Positions 1,585 to 45,488 of a DNA stretch of 64,000 bases are shown one piece after another; position 1 is the stretch's first letter; each line of letters starts with the position of its first letter. Position numbers and translations under genes: made by a program. A model generated the notes under the pieces. The model made no database searches. It was not told where the DNA came from and saw only the letters and a program-made list of their open reading frames with translations. Source of the DNA: Candidatus Nitrosacidococcus sp. I8 (GTDB taxonomy: Bacteria; Pseudomonadota; Gammaproteobacteria; Nitrosococcales; Nitrosococcaceae); contig NZ_OX241534.1 in the NCBI RefSeq assembly GCF_945836005.1, forward strand, positions 992,001 through 1,056,000, in the 5' to 3' direction.

Positions 1585-2044
1585 CATTAAATGCTCCTTT
1601 CGTGGTTAAAAACATCTAACTTAGGGAAAGTTAGGTAAATATTTACCTAGGATAAGGAGCAAAAATCATGCCAATCTTATATGATTTAGCTAGTGTTAAA
1701 AAATATTTAATAAATTTATATAGTTATCTATTAAAGAAAGGCTGCTATCTTGCAATATAGGAATTATGAACTGGAGGATAGGTAAAAATTAGTACATATT
1801 ATGACTTTTTTTGTCAAACTTATTCATTATAAAGAATTAATTTCAGCTAAAAGCCTATTTGCTTCATATCTATATTCAGTAATATATTATATATTACATA
1901 TATTTGATAATAATCAAACAACTATAATCTATATAAAAAATATTTTATTTATACTGACATTATTTGTCATAATATTAGTTTCTGAATGTATGCTCTACTT
2001 AGTAAGGGTTAGCTTAAAATCTCCGCAACAAAAATTCTCTAAAA
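1585..2044. other. Intergenic region with promoter, palindrome and no convincing gene
   Basis: This AT-rich stretch holds the sigma-54-like site at 1658-1674 and, just after its predicted start point, a perfect 18-bp palindrome at 1632-1649 (TAGGTAAAT and its complement) that would lie at the start of the mRNA. An 87-codon frame on the plus strand (1801-2064) has no ribosome site, an AT-driven composition and runs into the terminator of the minus-strand gene, so I do not call it. Confidence 0.5.
1658..1674 (-). promoter_or_regulatory. Sigma-54 (RpoN) type promoter of the first PEP-CTERM gene
   Basis: On the minus strand the site reads TTGGCATGATTTTTGCT. It matches the RpoN consensus YTGGCACGRNNNTTGCW, with GG and GC separated by exactly 10 bases. 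Predicted start of transcription is near 1647, about 60 bases before the ATG. Confidence 0.75.
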
Positions 2045-2925: not shown

Positions 2926-3415
2926 AAGATATGATGCTCCATTGTGTGTTTCCTTACTTAAGTAAACTTAATTTTTTAAATTAAGTACCCTTCTACCTTA
3001 TGGAGAAGCAATATCTATACCAAGCTATCTAAGCGTTCATGTTTAATTTTTCATATCACTATTTAGTATATTTATTATATTAAATAATATTTTTTTTATT
3101 GTTGTCCATCCTATTTAGATAAATATCTAAATAAATTAATAAATATGGAAAAAATTGGTATATTTTTATCCTATTTATTATCACTATATTTTTAACTATT
3201 TGAATTTATTAATAATAAAATCTATAATTAATGAAATAATTATTGCTCTAAATTTGCAAGAAATGCAGCGTATATTTAAAAAACTTCTTTTAAATAAGCT
3301 ATTTTTAAGCAGAAAAATTGGCGTATTTTTTATATCTTTTTATAATATCCCTAATTAATATTTATGAGGTTTTTGGGGTACTTAAATAATCAAAACTAAA
3401 TATGGCTGGGATAAC
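2926..3415. other. AT-rich intergenic region with divergent promoters
   Basis: It contains the sigma-54-like site at 3007-3023 and an inverted repeat at 3112-3133 (TATTTAGATA, two bases, TATCTAAATA) about 100 bases upstream of it, a suitable place for an enhancer-binding protein. A 67-codon frame at 3155-3358 is Ile/Leu/Asn/Lys-rich AT noise. The fabB promoter must lie in the right part; I cannot name its boxes with confidence. Confidence 0.45.
3007..3023 (-). promoter_or_regulatory. Sigma-54 (RpoN) type promoter of the second PEP-CTERM gene
   Basis: The minus strand reads TTGGTATAGATATTGCT, with GG and GC 10 bases apart as RpoN requires. It is weaker than the other two sites because GGCAC is replaced by GGTAT. 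The predicted mRNA start is near 2996, about 70 bases before the ATG. Confidence 0.6.
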
Positions 3416-19328: not shown

Positions 19329-21386
19329 CTAAGCTACTGCAGCAACACACATAGTGATTCCCTCGCCAAGCCAGCCTTGAGTAATCATACTATTATATTC
19401 TTCAATAGAGGTAGCAAAGCGATGATTTGGATTACTAGCTGCAGCTTGGTTATTATAAGCCTGATAAATAGGATCGGAACTACTAGGACAAGCTCCATTG
19501 ATAGGAGCAAGCGCATAAAAAGAAATTCCTTCATAGGTCCATAGATCATCGGCAACCGCATTAGTAGGATTAATGGATTGTAAATAACTACAATCACTCG
19601 AATTTACAGTATAAAAATAAGAATTTGCCCCTTGATTATAAAATTGACATACAGGCTGTGCCCCATTGGTCGCTCCAGACCAAGCATAAAATAAATTCCC
19701 CGTCAGTTGCCAATTTGGACCAGCTTCTCCTCGATTCATTGCAGCCATCTGTGCCTTTGAAGTCGCTAAAAGATAATCATTAGAGCTTGAGTTATAAAAC
19801 TCGTAAATCAGGGTATACTTTTTAAAAGTAGTGGCTGCTTGAACCGCATTTTCTGCATCGGCAATCCCTGATCCACACAAATTATTGTACTGAGCACATA
19901 CACTGCCTGCAGGGAAATCACGGCTTGTTGCAGGCAATAAAGAGTTTAACTCTATTCCAGAGAGTTCTGGATTGATGCCTAGCATTAAAGAGGCAATGCC
20001 AACCACATGGGGCGCTGATTCACTGGTACCTATTTGCTGATCATAACCAAATCCTTCAGGGGTAGTGGCACCTGTACTGGTAGTTGAAATGATTCCATTT
20101 GTTTCTCCTCCCGGGGCAGTAATAATACCCATAATATTAGGGTTGTTTAAATTAAGATTAGTATAAGAGGTAGCATCTCCACTAAAATTAGTTGCAACCG
20201 TGGTGAGTACTCCATTACAGTTCCCTGGAAATGCCTGACTGATATCCTTTTGATCATTACCAGCAGCAACAACTATCTGCGCCCCCTGTCCAAGCGCAAG
20301 GCTAATTGCCTCTTGATAAAGAGAAGGGCAGGCTCCATCTCCTGCTAAACTTAAGTTAATAACCTGAGCGGGATTAGGGTTAGTTGGCACACCAGAAACA
20401 GGCAGGCCTGCAGCCCATAAAACCCCATTTACTACATCAGTCAGAGATCCGCCACATTTTCCGAGGGTACGAACAGGTAAAATTTTAGTATTCCAATTTA
20501 CACCAGCCATCCCTATATCGTTATTACCTTCAGCGGCAATAATTCCAGTGACATGAGTCCCATGCCAAGAACTAGGCTCTGCAGGTTGATTGTCACCACA
20601 TTCATTGGCGGTGGTCCAATCTCCAGGATCGGATCCGCCTGGCACATAGGGAGTGACCGTAAAATCATAGCCAGGTAATAACCGATCGGCAAACTCTGGG
20701 TGAGGATTTATGCCCGTATCTACCACTGCGACAATCGTACTAGAGTCTCCTTGAGTTGTATCCCAAGCACCCGTTGCATTAATCCCACCGATATATCCTT
20801 GGGCTTGTCCTTTCATGCTCCATTGGTAGGGGTCAAATAGAGGATCATTGGGAATGAACTGCATTTTTACCCGGATATCGGCTTCAAGTTGATCAATACT
20901 AGGGAGTGTTCTTGCGTTTTCAATCAGATCTGCTACTTCTGCTCCAGATTTAGAGGTCTGAAAGTGAAATATATGGGTTTTATTACCCATTGCTTGATAA
21001 AAAACTAACTTTTCCCCAAAAATAGCTTCTAATTCATTGGTAATTTCATCAGGAGGAGGTAAATTATCTTCTGCTAGATCTTGAATTTTTTGATCTTTAA
21101 AGCGGACGGCAATGCCATCTACTATAGTAGTAGGAGATAAGGTAGGATTTAATAATTGAGGATTATTTTCTTTTTCCGACTGTGAAGTAACAGATTGTTT
21201 TGTTATTAATGAAGGTTTCGGCGTATTTAAGTTTTGAATACCTCCCTCTTTTATGAGCAGGTCTTGAATCATCGGTGCTACTTTGGAATTTAAAGATGGT
21301 TGGATCTCCTGACTAGGTAAGGAATCAGCATAGACAATTAAACTAAATAAATTCAATACGATACCGATTAATAATCCTAACCACAT
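19329..21386 (-). CDS. Secreted subtilisin-family serine protease with DUF5648-like C-terminus, copy A
   Basis: A 685-residue S8 protease. Residues 1-20 form a signal peptide. A propeptide region runs to about 185. The catalytic domain has Asp223 (VAVVDTGINPHPEF), His275 (SSWHGTHVTG), oxyanion Asn377 (VVAAGND) and Ser457 in GTSESAPH, where the usual Met before Ser is Glu. After about residue 525 a domain with repeated YEFYNSSSNDYLL, CQFYNQGANSYFYT and YQAYNN units resembles DUF5648. Cysteine pairs suggest disulfides and export. It lies 118 bases behind copy B and has no visible promoter of its own, so it may be co-transcribed. Confidence 0.9.
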   Translation of the reverse strand: MWLGLLIGIVLNLFSLIVYADSLPSQEIQPSLNSKVAPMIQDLLIKEGGIQNLNTPKPSLITKQSVTSQSEKENNPQLLNPTLSPTTIVDGIAVRFKDQKIQDLAEDNLPPPDEITNELEAIFGEKLVFYQAMGNKTHIFHFQTSKSGAEVADLIENARTLPSIDQLEADIRVKMQFIPNDPLFDPYQWSMKGQAQGYIGGINATGAWDTTQGDSSTIVAVVDTGINPHPEFADRLLPGYDFTVTPYVPGGSDPGDWTTANECGDNQPAEPSSWHGTHVTGIIAAEGNNDIGMAGVNWNTKILPVRTLGKCGGSLTDVVNGVLWAAGLPVSGVPTNPNPAQVINLSLAGDGACPSLYQEAISLALGQGAQIVVAAGNDQKDISQAFPGNCNGVLTTVATNFSGDATSYTNLNLNNPNIMGIITAPGGETNGIISTTSTGATTPEGFGYDQQIGTSESAPHVVGIASLMLGINPELSGIELNSLLPATSRDFPAGSVCAQYNNLCGSGIADAENAVQAATTFKKYTLIYEFYNSSSNDYLLATSKAQMAAMNRGEAGPNWQLTGNLFYAWSGATNGAQPVCQFYNQGANSYFYTVNSSDCSYLQSINPTNAVADDLWTYEGISFYALAPINGACPSSSDPIYQAYNNQAAASNPNHRFATSIEEYNSMITQGWLGEGITMCVAAVA
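19342..21294 (-). repeat. Long duplicated segment, copy A
   Basis: By eye, 19464-20096 and 20455-21294 are practically identical to 21631-22263 and 22631-23470. Between them, 20097-20454 (residues 311-430 of the protease) is clearly diverged from 22264-22630. A second variable patch lies near the C-terminus (about 19415-19463). Confidence 0.9.
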
Positions 21387-21504: not shown

Positions 21505-23535
21505 TTATACGCTTACAATTGCAACACACATAGTGATTCCCTCGCCAAGCCAGCCTTGAGTAATCATACTATTATATTCTTCAATAGAGGTAGTATAGCG
21601 ATGATTCACCCATATCTGATTATAAACTTGATAAATAGGATCGGAACTACTAGGACAAGCTCCATTGATAGGAGCAAGCGCATAAAAAGAAATTCCTTCA
21701 TAGGTCCATAGATCATCGGCAACCGCATTAGTAGGATTAATGGATTGTAAATAACTACAATCACTCGAATTTACAGTATAAAAATAAGAATTTGCCCCTT
21801 GATTATAAAATTGACATACAGGCTGTGCCCCATTGGTCGCTCCAGACCAAGCATAAAATAAATTCCCCGTCAGTTGCCAATTTGGACCAGCTTCTCCTCG
21901 ATTCATTGCAGCCATCTGTGCCTTTGAAGTCGCTAAAAGATAATCATTAGAGCTTGAGTTATAAAACTCGTAAATCAGGGTATACTTTTTAAAAGTAGTG
22001 GCTGCTTGAACCGCATTTTCTGCATCGGCAATCCCTGATCCACACAAATTATTGTACTGAGCACATACACTGCCTGCAGGGAAATCACGGCTTGTTGCAG
22101 GCAATAAAGAGTTTAACTCTATTCCAGAGAGTTCTGGATTGATGCCTAGCATTAAAGAGGCAATGCCAACCACATGGGGCGCTGATTCACTGGTACCTAT
22201 TTGCTGATCATAACCAAATCCTTCAGGGGTAGTGGCACCTGTACTGGTAGTTGAAATGATTCCTAAGCTACGACTACCATCTCCTCCGGGAGCAGCAATG
22301 AAATTGCTTTGATTAGATCCAATAAAATTAAGATTAGTATAAGAGGTAGCATCCCCATTAAAATTAGTCGCAACCGTGGTGAGTACTCCATTACAGTTCC
22401 CCGGAAATGCCTGACTAATATCTTCTTGGTTATTTCCTGCTGCCACTACAATGAGTATACCCTGATCTAATGCACGATTAATTGCCTCTTGATAAAGAGA
22501 AGGGCAGATTCCTTTTCCTGATAAGCTTAGATTAATAATTTGAGCAGGATTAGGATTAGTTGTCATACCAGAAACAGGCAGGCCTGCAGCCCAAACCGTA
22601 CCATTTACCATATTACTTAGGGATCCGCCGCATTTTCCGAGGGTACGAACAGGTAAAATTTTAGTATTCCAATTTACACCAGCCATCCCTATATCGTTAT
22701 TACCTTCAGCGGCAATAATTCCAGTGACATGAGTCCCATGCCAAGAACTAGGCTCTGCAGGTTGATTGTCACCACATTCATTGGCGGTGGTCCAATCTCC
22801 AGGATCGGATCCGCCTGGCACATAGGGAGTGACCGTAAAATCATAGCCAGGTAATAACCGATCGGCAAACTCTGGGTGAGGATTTATGCCCGTATCTACC
22901 ACTGCGACAATCGTACTAGAGTCTCCTTGAGTTGTATCCCAAGCACCCGTTGCATTAATCCCACCGATATATCCTTGGGCTTGTCCTTTCATGCTCCATT
23001 GGTAGGGGTCAAATAGAGGATCATTGGGAATGAACTGCATTTTTACCCGGATATCGGCTTCAAGTTGATCAATACTAGGGAGTGTTCTTGCGTTTTCAAT
23101 CAGATCTGCTACTTCTGCTCCAGATTTAGAGGTCTGAAAGTGAAATATATGGGTTTTATTACCCATTGCTTGATAAAAAACTAACTTTTCCCCAAAAATA
23201 GCTTCTAATTCATTGGTAATTTCATCAGGAGGAGGTAAATTATCTTCTGCTAGATCTTGAATTTTTTGATCTTTAAAGCGGACGGCAATGCCATCTACTA
23301 TAGTAGTAGGAGATAAGGTAGGATTTAATAATTGAGGATTATTTTCTTTTTCCGACTGTGAAGTAACAGATTGTTTTGTTATTAATGAAGGTTTCGGCGT
23401 ATTTAAGTTTTGAATACCTCCCTCTTTTATGAGCAGGTCTTGAATCATCGGTGCTACTTTGGAATTTAAATTAGCGCTATAGCTAATACTATTAATACTA
23501 ATTAAAACTACAGAAATTACTATTCTTAACCACAT
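21505..23535 (-). CDS. Secreted subtilisin-family serine protease with DUF5648-like C-terminus, copy B
   Basis: The start is ATG 23535 (MWLRIVISVVLIS), which aligns with copy A; a GTG at 23544 with a better-placed GAGGAA is an alternative. The protein has a different signal peptide from copy A but the same propeptide, the same catalytic residues (DTGINPHPEF, SSWHGTHVTG, VVAAGNN, GTSESAPH) and the same DUF5648-like tail. It differs in the central 120-residue island and in a short stretch near the C-terminus (YQVYNQIWVNHRYTTS). A sigma-54-like site lies about 40-50 bases upstream, and copy A follows in the same direction. Confidence 0.9.
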   Translation of the reverse strand: MWLRIVISVVLISINSISYSANLNSKVAPMIQDLLIKEGGIQNLNTPKPSLITKQSVTSQSEKENNPQLLNPTLSPTTIVDGIAVRFKDQKIQDLAEDNLPPPDEITNELEAIFGEKLVFYQAMGNKTHIFHFQTSKSGAEVADLIENARTLPSIDQLEADIRVKMQFIPNDPLFDPYQWSMKGQAQGYIGGINATGAWDTTQGDSSTIVAVVDTGINPHPEFADRLLPGYDFTVTPYVPGGSDPGDWTTANECGDNQPAEPSSWHGTHVTGIIAAEGNNDIGMAGVNWNTKILPVRTLGKCGGSLSNMVNGTVWAAGLPVSGMTTNPNPAQIINLSLSGKGICPSLYQEAINRALDQGILIVVAAGNNQEDISQAFPGNCNGVLTTVATNFNGDATSYTNLNFIGSNQSNFIAAPGGDGSRSLGIISTTSTGATTPEGFGYDQQIGTSESAPHVVGIASLMLGINPELSGIELNSLLPATSRDFPAGSVCAQYNNLCGSGIADAENAVQAATTFKKYTLIYEFYNSSSNDYLLATSKAQMAAMNRGEAGPNWQLTGNLFYAWSGATNGAQPVCQFYNQGANSYFYTVNSSDCSYLQSINPTNAVADDLWTYEGISFYALAPINGACPSSSDPIYQVYNQIWVNHRYTTSIEEYNSMITQGWLGEGITMCVAIVSV
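21521..23470 (-). repeat. Long duplicated segment, copy B
   Basis: Partner of the segment at 19342-21294. The offset changes from 2179 to 2167 to 2176 bases along the alignment because of small in-frame indels inside the variable patches. Confidence 0.9.
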
Positions 23536-23583
23536 ATTAGGCACTCACTTTTGCTGTATTCCTCTTTACTTTTCTAAAAGAGG

Positions 23584-23600
23584 GGCAAAAGCTGTGCCAA
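23584..23600 (-). promoter_or_regulatory. Sigma-54 (RpoN) type promoter of the protease pair
   Basis: The minus strand reads TTGGCACAGCTTTTGCC, with full TGGCAC and TTGC elements and exactly 10 bases between GG and GC. It is the best RpoN match in the window. The predicted start near 23573 leaves a leader of about 30-40 bases. Confidence 0.78.
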
Positions 23601-23815
23601 TCTATCTTGTTTTGTGCATATTAATGTTTATTAATATCAATAACTTTATAGTTATATGTAAAAAGTTTTTTTACTTGAATTTTGCTAAGGATGATTTTTA
23701 ATAAAAATTAACTGATTTATCAAATAAAAATTTAGCTATTACACGTCACTATTTATGACATTTTTTATATTTCTTATTTGAAAATATAAGAAATTAAAAC
23801 TATCCAAATTTATAA

Positions 23816-24982
23816 ATGATTCTTTATAAAAAAATAATTACTTGTTTATTACTTTTGATCTTTATTTTATTTGGGATTTACCAAGGAACTCTCTCTTTGA
23901 AAAAAGAAAAAGAGATAATCTCACGTAAGCAGTCTTTATCTCTTATTAATCAATTATTAAACACAGTAAACATAGGGTTCTCTCAAGTAGATGTGCCATG
24001 GCAATTTCTATTTCCTAGAGATCATGGAGCACACTCAAGCTATCAAAATGAATCGTGGAATTTTGCTGGTAATTTAAGATCAGATCAGAGAAGAGATTTT
24101 GGATTTCAATTTAATTTTTTTCGAATGGGATTAAAATCGCCAGATTCTTCTCAGTCTACTTCTTTATGGAGGTTCCAAGAGCTCTATCGAGGCTATTTTG
24201 GACTAGCTGATATACTAAAATCTCAATTTTATCCTATTGAACGCTTCAGCCGTACTGCTTTGGGACTAAGCGGTGCCTCTTCTACAAACAATTCTATCAA
24301 AGTATGGCTAGAAGATTGGCGATTTCAAGTATTGAGCGAAGAAGAGGCAAAAAGTAGTTTTTCTTTATTCGCAAAAACTGAAAATGCAAGTATCGATTTA
24401 ATATTGCAGCCATTAAAGCTTCCTTTCTATTTTGGTGGCGATTCACAAGCCTCACTAGGAAATTTTTATGCTTATACCCTACCACGGTTGATGACTAAAG
24501 GGACGATAAAAATCAAACATAGTAGCTACCCAGTGACAGGTCTATCTTGGTTTGATCACAGTTGGGGAAAAATACCTATCCCAACTGGATCTACCGTATG
24601 GGATCGATTTTTACTTCAGCTAGACAACGGGGTAGATTTACTCGTTCTTCGACTCCATCGCATAGATGGTACGGGTACTCCTATTAATAATGGCACTTTA
24701 GTGACCTCTCAAGGAGAGATAGAAACCCTGACTAGAGAGGATATTGCACTCAATCCACTTAGTAATTGGAAAAGCCCTAATACTCATATTTCTTATCCCA
24801 CCCACTGGCAGCTACAAATTCCCGAGCATGATATTGATCTTAACATTACTCCCAGTATAGAAAATCAAGAGCTTAACTTAAGTCTAGATTATTGGAGTGG
24901 ATCAGTTACAGTAACTGGTTACTATCAAGGCAATAACGTGATAGGAAAAGGGTTTCAAGAACTTACTGGTTATCAGCCATAG
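23816..24982 (+). CDS. AttH/CrtC-like secreted or membrane-anchored hydrolase
   Basis: A 388-residue protein with one N-terminal hydrophobic segment (IITCLLLLIFILFGIYQG), probably a signal anchor. The lipocalin-like AttH/CrtC fold is shown by VPWQFLFPRDHGAHSSYQNE, WNFAGNLR, FGFQFNFFR and VTGLSWFDHSWG. Relatives include carotenoid 1,2-hydratase and 'predicted secreted hydrolases'. Usually AttH genes sit next to an FtsX-type ABC transporter; none is here. The actual substrate is unknown. The 270-base AT-rich gap before it carries the divergent sigma-54-like site, but I see no such site for this gene. Confidence 0.82.
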   Translation: MILYKKIITCLLLLIFILFGIYQGTLSLKKEKEIISRKQSLSLINQLLNTVNIGFSQVDVPWQFLFPRDHGAHSSYQNESWNFAGNLRSDQRRDFGFQFNFFRMGLKSPDSSQSTSLWRFQELYRGYFGLADILKSQFYPIERFSRTALGLSGASSTNNSIKVWLEDWRFQVLSEEEAKSSFSLFAKTENASIDLILQPLKLPFYFGGDSQASLGNFYAYTLPRLMTKGTIKIKHSSYPVTGLSWFDHSWGKIPIPTGSTVWDRFLLQLDNGVDLLVLRLHRIDGTGTPINNGTLVTSQGEIETLTREDIALNPLSNWKSPNTHISYPTHWQLQIPEHDIDLNITPSIENQELNLSLDYWSGSVTVTGYYQGNNVIGKGFQELTGYQP

Positions 24983-43667: not shown

Positions 43668-45044
43668 AATGGCATCAAAGAATCCGCTGAAGTAACTCCT
43701 ACATCCTCGGCTACAGATACCCACCTTGCTCTTGATAGCATACCTGCACCGAAAGAAACATTCTTTTTAGCTATTCAACATGTATGTGCGGCCTATGCTG
43801 GGATTATTGCCCCACCGCTCATTATTGGTAAGGCACTGGATCTTCCACTGGCATATCTAACCATTTTATTATCAACCAGTATTTTAGCATCGGGTGCAGT
43901 CACCCTATTACAGACTATTGGAATACCGGGTATTGGGGTAAAGCTCCCATTGGTAGAAGGGGTTTCATTTTCAACTATTGCTCCCATGTTAATCATAGGT
44001 CAGATGTCTCCAGATCCATTTACTGCGATGCAAATCATTATGGGATCGGTCATTATATCTTCAGTGTTCATGTTCTTTGGGGCTTCTCTTTATGCTCGCT
44101 TATTAAACTTTTTCCCCCCCCTTGTTTTAGGATCAGTAGTGACAGTGATTGGACTTACTCTAATCCCTGTTTCCATTGAGTGGATGCAAGGGCAGGAAAG
44201 TACTCCATTCTATCAATCCCCTTATATTATTAGCTTAAGTTTCTTTACCTTTATGATCACCATTATGGCTGTTCGTTATGGTCCCAAATTTGTAAAACGA
44301 GTATCTGTATTATTGGGTATTACCACTGGCACACTCATTGCCATCCCCATGGGATTAGTAGATTTTTCAGAAGCCATGACTCAAGATTTATTTGTATTAC
44401 CTCATTTTTTAGCATTTGGCATGCCTAAATTTGAAATCACTTCCATTATTTCTATGACGATTGTGATGTGGGTGATTATGATAGAAGCCACATGTAATAT
44501 TATGGCAATTGGGGAAATTGTAGGGAAAGACATAAAAAAACAAGATGTTATCAATTGCCTAAGAGCAGATTGTTTAGGATCTATTTTCTCTGCAGTGCTC
44601 AATGGATTTCAATGTAGTGCTTATGGCCAAAATATTGGAATTATTCAAATAAGTCGAGTATATAGCCGCTATGTGGTAGCTGTCGCTGGGCTTCTCCTCG
44701 TAATTCTAGGTATGTTTCCATTACTCTCTGCAATGATTGCAAGCATACCCCTGCCTGTACTTGGAGGTGCATGTTTAGCAGTATTTGGTCTTGTTGTAGC
44801 TACCGGCATTCAAACCCTCTCTTCTGTAGATCTGACCTCTGAGCAAGGTACAGTCAATAGTCTTATTATCGCTGCATCCATTACTATGGGCATGGTACCT
44901 TTAGTAGCACCTCAGTTTTATACTCATTTTCCTCACTGGGTAAGCATAATTTTTGGATCTGGCATTACCTCCAGTGCAATTACTGCCATCAGATTAAATT
45001 TAATTTTAAACGAAGCACCCAAAATTCATAGAATCAGACACTGA
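43653..45044 (+). CDS. NCS2-family nucleobase:cation symporter (uracil/xanthine permease type)
   Basis: A 463-residue inner-membrane transporter with about 12-14 hydrophobic segments. Marks: FLAIQHVCAAYAGIIAPPLIIG near the N-terminus, GIPGIGVKLPLVEGVSFSTIAPM, FFPPLVLGSVVTVIGLTLIPV, and GFQCSAYGQNIGIIQISRVYSRYV, which is the NCS2 signature region around helix 10. Known substrates of the family are uracil, xanthine and urate. Next to a cyanurate/barbiturate-type hydrolase it may import that substrate. The ribosome site is poor and a 22-bp duplication puts a decoy start 22 bases upstream. Confidence 0.9.
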   Translation: MNYHNNGIKESAEVTPTSSATDTHLALDSIPAPKETFFLAIQHVCAAYAGIIAPPLIIGKALDLPLAYLTILLSTSILASGAVTLLQTIGIPGIGVKLPLVEGVSFSTIAPMLIIGQMSPDPFTAMQIIMGSVIISSVFMFFGASLYARLLNFFPPLVLGSVVTVIGLTLIPVSIEWMQGQESTPFYQSPYIISLSFFTFMITIMAVRYGPKFVKRVSVLLGITTGTLIAIPMGLVDFSEAMTQDLFVLPHFLAFGMPKFEITSIISMTIVMWVIMIEATCNIMAIGEIVGKDIKKQDVINCLRADCLGSIFSAVLNGFQCSAYGQNIGIIQISRVYSRYVVAVAGLLLVILGMFPLLSAMIASIPLPVLGGACLAVFGLVVATGIQTLSSVDLTSEQGTVNSLIIAASITMGMVPLVAPQFYTHFPHWVSIIFGSGITSSAITAIRLNLILNEAPKIHRIRH

Positions 45045-45398
45045 ATTTACATAGAAGCACATCTTAAAGAAAGGAATAAGAATGTATGAAAATTTGTTTT
45101 GTTTCCTTATCTTGTAAGTACTACAACTAACTTACACTTAGTGAAGCTAGGGTTTTAATTGATAGAGGATAAAGGGAGAGAGGGGGAGGGGGGATTTCTA
45201 CCGATTTTCGCTATAATGGGCTACAAAATAGCTATTCTAGGTAATAAATTTTGCTACAAATTGACAATAAATAGCATCATTTCCCAAAAAATATTTATAC
45301 CCTAAATATATTAAAAACTATAATCAATATAATAGTGTATTTGGTATACATGTTGCTTTATTATCCTCGTTAGCCATATTTTAAAGGATAGATAAGGT
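45045..45398. other. Intergenic region with a G-rich purine run
   Basis: A run of 24 purines with long G-tracts lies at 45171-45194. No coding frame is convincing before 45399. Confidence 0.6.
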
Positions 45399-45488
45399 AT
45401 GAATAAAGATACGTTAATAATCGTTTTGCTGTGTATTTTAGGGATTTCTCTATATTTATGGTGGCTTCTTAGTAGTACCACTAATTAG
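45399..45488 (+). CDS. Possible 29-residue single-span membrane protein
   Basis: The frame MNKDTLIIVLLCILGISLYL continues with WWLLSSTTN and ends at TAG. It has one hydrophobic helix, a charged N-terminus, and AAGG close upstream of the ATG (spacing only 1-2 bases) with AAAGGA a further 10 bases away. It looks like a small membrane subunit of the CydX/CcoQ kind in size, but I recognise no family. It stands alone between the permease gene and metZ. Confidence 0.45.
   Translation: MNKDTLIIVLLCILGISLYLWWLLSSTTN

Follow-up and report, generated by a model that had tools for sequence, protein, structure and literature searches.

Two genes coding for secreted subtilases are arranged in tandem in the 64,000-nt stretch of DNA analysed here (the window). 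They share the domain architecture and the signal peptide of other secreted subtilases of the S8 family whose C-terminal domain is DUF5648, from which they differ as a tandem duplicate with long identical blocks. The two proteins are 93% identical; at the DNA level, identity is 100% at alignment columns 120–900 and 1320–1920, while the central block diverges (60–95%), and the signal peptides of the two copies differ. The pattern looks as if gene conversion had taken place, or a recent duplication followed by local replacement.

A 280-nt gap (23536–23815) separates the ATG of the first subtilase, at 23535, from a CrtC/lipocalin-like gene that starts divergently at 23816. A sigma-54-like site falls in this gap, and its orientation and distance fit the subtilase ATG. 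No sigma-54 site was found in the 118-nt gap upstream of the second subtilase. An earlier note on this DNA had placed such a site ahead of tandem subtilases lacking a PEP-CTERM tail: position, orientation, the Peptidase_S8 and DUF5648 domains and the translations of both genes, from which this tail is absent, all agree with that description. The features discussed below are listed in Table 1.

Table 1. Position of the genes, sigma-54 sites and activator boxes (window coordinates unless marked as genome)
Feature	Position	Strand	Remarks
PEP-CTERM gene 1, sigma-54 site TGGCATGATTTTTGCT	1658–1673	-	Strict match; gene at 697–1584
PEP-CTERM gene 1, activator box TGACAAAAAAAGTCA	1802–1816	-	Score 15.5 (pilA-only matrix), above all background
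Perfect palindrome TGACATTATTTGTCA	1955–1969	.	One of five genomic TGACAN5TGTCA
PEP-CTERM-like gene 2101–2925, sigma-54 site TGGTATAGATATTGCT	3007–3022	-	Strict match
Second subtilase (685 aa), tandem duplicate	19329–21386	-	Peptidase_S8 and DUF5648
First subtilase (676 aa)	21505–23535	-	Signal peptide; Peptidase_S8 (E=3e-45); DUF5648 (E=1e-27)
Subtilase sigma-54-like -24/-12 site TGGCACAGCTTTTGCC	23584–23599	-	TGGCAC-N5-TTGC; 49 nt 5' of first subtilase ATG
Weak candidate activator box TCACTATTTATGACA (TGTCATAAATAGTGA on minus strand)	23746–23760	-	161 nt 5' of subtilase -24 element
45342 promoter, activator box TGACAATAAATAGCA	45262–45276	+	Score 9.8, at a background fraction of 0.01
Fourth intergenic sigma-54 site TGGTATACATGTTGCT	45342–45357	+	5' of possible 29-aa membrane peptide
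Possible 29-aa hydrophobic peptide ORF MNKDTLIIVLLCILGISLYLWWLLSSTTN	45399–45488	+	Downstream of strong 45342 promoter
Receiver-less sigma-54 activator	genome 461516–462538
AtoC/NtrC-like regulator	genome 798095–799468

Sigma-54 sites in the window and in the genome

When the window was scanned with the sigma-54 consensus allowing two mismatches, 26 matches were obtained for 25.7 expected from shuffled sequences, so that weight was given only to strict matches and to their placement. In the genome-wide promoter scan, as proposed in the earlier note, the strict pattern TGGYAYN5TTGCY was matched 32 times over the 1.85 Mb of the genome, vs. once for a reversed-pattern control which, as it contains CG, is too lenient, the intergenic share being the safer test. 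By this test, 17 of the 31 matches first classified are intergenic (P~1e-8, a value that depends on the intergenic share of about 12% assumed), the 32nd being coding. Note that these genome-wide counts come from the pattern search, whereas the background consists of 395 kb of sampled stretches.

Most of the intergenic strict matches precede PEP-CTERM genes (L003, L008, L009, L012, L013, L016, L017, L021, L024, L025 and L027). One precedes pilA, beside pilSR (L032), and two lie before possible short membrane-peptide ORFs (L020 and L022); the remaining ones are the subtilase site (L018), L005, which has no activator box, and L011. The coding-frame matches (L002, L004, L006, L007, L010, L014, L015, L019, L023, L026, L028–L031 and genome position 1636601) were set aside as noise. 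RpoN and an EpsH-type exosortase (271.7 bits, over cut-off) are both encoded in this genome. As a whole, the intergenic share and the placement before PEP-CTERM genes and pilA indicate that a sigma-54 surface-protein regulon exists here, to which both PEP-CTERM sites of the window are predicted to belong. In kind, such a regulon is already known: sigma-54 sites and an activator motif were described at proteobacterial PEP-CTERM genes by Haft et al. 2006 (PMC1569441), and RpoN dependence was shown for one PEP-CTERM gene, pepA of Aquincola (PMC9850573).

Of the three sigma-54-like sites that the earlier note had counted before secreted proteins, those at 1658 and 3007 are real and precede PEP-CTERM genes, but a fourth intergenic site, at 45342(+), had been missed. 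Nor is the subtilase site the single best RpoN match of the window, as had been thought: the TGGCAC-N5-TTGC core is present, but it ties on consensus with TGGCACACTCATTGCC at 44327, which sits within a coding frame, and it ranks fourth on a family matrix, after 1658, 3007 and 45342(+).

The activator box and the standing of the subtilase promoter

TGACA or TGTCA (TGWCA) is found 5' of the -24 element in 14 of 15 regulon promoters, for a background of 0.19 per 255 nt. These half-sites belong to a TGAC-N7-GTCA type of box, found by reading aligned upstream regions and by EM; the top palindromic motif in the regulon upstream regions, TGACAAnnnTTGTCA, was recovered from random starts too. Counting of perfect dyads missed the box, because A/T dyads dominate. 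The perfect form, TGACAN5TGTCA, has five copies in the genome: three between pilR and pilA, and one 5' of PEP-CTERM gene 1. Half-sites of the TGTC type are the classic PilR element.

With a matrix built only from pilA boxes (three from this genome and one from the relative G001), the 95% level of the background was exceeded by nine of the 15 other sigma-54 promoters (P~7e-9), whereas the PEP-CTERM promoters of relatives obtained low scores. In G001, pilA adjoins pilR and has a sigma-54 site with the box TGACGTACTACGTCA; in the Nitrosococcus-like G002–G004, pilA does not adjoin pilR, and conservation of the pilA box could therefore be checked in G001 only. Several real members (L012, L013, L017, L021 and L025) have poor box scores, so the box model is imperfect.

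Concerning the subtilase site, two matrices disagree, and the verdict accordingly rests on both. On the family matrix, made of promoters from this genome and from relatives, it scores 16.1, left-out members ranging from 9 to 23. As to matches of equal quality before random genes, a point raised in the earlier note, the loose scan stays at the shuffle rate, whereas on the family matrix one of 588 oriented 100-nt intergenic intervals is as good as the subtilase site. On the own-genome matrix (12 sites), its score is 11.8 vs. 17–24 for left-out members, and in a sample of 208 genes whose upstream sequence was long enough, three other genes, none of the PEP-CTERM kind, come near or above it (13.7, 12.3 and 11.8). 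The own-genome matrix alone would thus reject the site, and it is the addition of the relatives' promoters that brings it back into the family range.

The subtilase core ends in TTGCC, the regulon sites of the same genome in TTGCT. C at -11 occurs in none of the 12 PEP-CTERM and pilA promoters used, nor in L011, L020, L022 and L041. Among the strict matches, nine of 11 ending in C are coding, while 15 of 21 ending in T are intergenic; the second intergenic match ending in C has no activator box. In G001, however, a PEP-CTERM gene has a TTGCC-ending sigma-54 site behind a perfect PrsR box, which suggests that the family tolerates C. The strict core was not found before the subtilase orthologues (49–53% identity) of G001, G004 and G005, from which the present pair differs by its upstream site. 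As for the activator box, the score of the subtilase candidate is reached by a background fraction of 0.05–0.22 (four matrices; intergenic chunks), with 6% for the pilA-only matrix and 13–22% for the EM matrices, and is marginal.

The subtilase site could therefore be a chance match, the pair being under an ordinary sigma-70 promoter and outside the surface regulon. The preponderance of coding noise among C-ending strict matches, the own-genome score, the marginal box and the bare upstream regions of the orthologues are all in line with this, and the null rate of 0.0005–0.0017 per upstream interval amounts to roughly one such false match genome-wide. Against it, the distance to the start and the orientation agree with those of regulon genes, the score lies within the family range, TTGCC is also used in G001, and sigma-70-like matches in the subtilase region are not commoner than in shuffles. 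We rate a chance match as a little short of an even bet. That the subtilase pair is sigma-54-driven appears evenly balanced, and so does its membership of the surface regulon, which is possible but borderline on the features described above.

Co-regulation is a further step, since sharing sigma-54 is not being co-regulated: this needs a common activator box, which the earlier note had left out, and the subtilase box is the marginal one. Co-regulation of the pair with the matrix genes thus falls slightly on the doubtful side of even. The co-ordinated exterior programme proposed at the outset holds as a predicted sigma-54 surface regulon that includes both PEP-CTERM sites, but its extension to the proteases is no better than an even bet: the subtilase core is good, yet it carries C at -11, its box is marginal and the orthologues of three relatives are without the site.

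Deletion of prsK-prsR and a possible takeover by PilS-PilR

PrsR (TIGR02915) scores over cut-off in all five family relatives (738–791 bits), and so does PrsK (TIGR02916). In the window genome, no PrsR was found with the same profile, the best score (360) being that of PilR, and PrsK does not pass its cut-off either. The locus of the loss can be traced. In this genome, prsT (55% identical to that of G001) ends at L150:2662 and epsB starts at L150:2723, with about 60 nt in between; in G001, prsT is followed by about 9.4 kb, including a PEP-CTERM gene, prsR and prsK, and then by epsB. In G005, prsR-prsK still lies beside epsB. This synteny shows a deletion of prsK-prsR between prsT and epsB. A search for related loci in the contigs of other genomes returned distant relatives only.

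The PEP-CTERM promoters of G001 and G005 carry TGTCAN6TTTACA about 60–75 nt 5' of the sigma-54 site. Like motif 1 of Haft, a 17-nt motif ending in TTTACA about 63 nt 5' of the sigma-54 site (PMC1569441), this box is 17 nt long, has TTTACA at its 3' end and is similarly spaced. It is matched exactly 15 times in G001, four times in G005 and once in the window genome, at whose PEP-CTERM promoters motif 1, or PrsR box, was not found. Only three sigma-54 activators are encoded in this genome, namely PilR, an AtoC/NtrC-like regulator paired with its kinase, and a third that lacks a receiver, all three with a Fis-type helix-turn-helix.

With prsK-prsR deleted and the PEP-CTERM promoters bearing the box of the pilR-pilA region, PilS-PilR would be the likeliest present activator. 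PilR is favoured over the other two because pilA has the densest box array here, plus one box in G001, and because activation of pilA by PilR is known (PMC6058289). The reading that we put forward, at a probability of roughly 0.55, is that RpoN drives mainly a surface programme, probably activated by PilS-PilR, with the inclusion of the subtilases a toss-up. Its targets would be about twelve PEP-CTERM genes, together with pilA and two or more short membrane-peptide ORFs, and its promoters would combine a TGGYAY-N5-TTGCT core with a TGAC-N7-GTCA-type box, usually 65–170 nt 5'. In the relatives, PrsK-PrsR would activate the PEP-CTERM genes through the TGTCAN6TTTACA box; after the loss of PrsR, the sigma-54 cores of the promoters may have stayed in place while boxes of the PilR type were acquired or arose by drift. 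Phosphorylated PilR would then activate pilA and the matrix genes together, and possibly the expression of the subtilases. The corresponding history, in which the PEP-CTERM regulon was deprived of the two-component system dedicated to it and fell to PilS-PilR via box replacement at many promoters, cores being kept, is somewhat favoured.

Compared with the PEP-CTERM/exosortase regulon under PrsK-PrsR (PMC1569441; PMC9850573), long upstream regions, -24/-12 sites, an upstream activator motif, the EpsH-type exosortase and PrsT are the same here, whereas PrsK and PrsR are deleted, motif 1 is absent and the activator box has another half-site, common to pilA. Compared with the PilS-PilR/RpoN control of pilA (PMC6058289), pilSR likewise lies beside a pilA with a predicted sigma-54 promoter and upstream boxes, but the same box also stands before most PEP-CTERM genes. 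In the titles and abstracts of the literature on PEP-CTERM and PilR, no extension of PilR control to the exosortase regulon was found.

The box at the PEP-CTERM genes might instead be bound by an activator other than PilR that also controls pilA. The helix-turn-helix common to the three activators leaves room for this, the binding specificity of PilR being itself a prediction, but the pilR-pilA interval holds three of the five perfect palindromes, box and sigma-54 site recur at the G001 pilA adjoining its pilR, and PilR is established as a pilA activator (PMC6058289), which together make another binder unlikely. That the subtilase promoter is sigma-54-dependent through the AtoC/NtrC-like or the receiver-less activator, and not co-regulated with the PEP-CTERM genes, is improbable: these activators exist and the subtilase box deviates from the common one, but no shared alternative box was found and the candidate targets are reduced to one.

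PEP-CTERM proteins build the matrix of flocs and biofilms. If PilS-PilR has indeed taken over, the pilus, the matrix proteins and perhaps matrix-processing subtilases would be under one surface-sensing switch. To our knowledge, sigma-54 control of PEP-CTERM genes by PrsK-PrsR has been taken as the general rule in Proteobacteria. A regulator deleted at a traceable locus, with its box swapped for the pilin box at many promoters, would be a natural case of regulon takeover. Whether secreted proteases answer to that switch as well is a lesser question.

Some regulon members and related sites have peculiarities of their own. PEP-CTERM gene 1 has an in-frame TAG within its signal peptide (MMHNYKK*IFSS...), and its ORF from 1509 is without signal peptide, though the sigma-54 promoter and the box are intact. 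Two PEP-CTERM-type genes with good sigma-54 promoters, L012 and L025 (genome 844235 and 1356237), look frameshifted, in pieces of 74+175 aa and 75+186 aa, respectively, so that decay or misreading may affect several members of the regulon. At L011 (genome 707481–707496), the nearest ORF (71 aa) downstream of the high-scoring intergenic site TGGTATATTTTTTGCT starts 138 nt off. Finally, a 54-aa membrane ORF at L022:1299–1463 has the same kind of promoter as the 29-aa peptide ORF.
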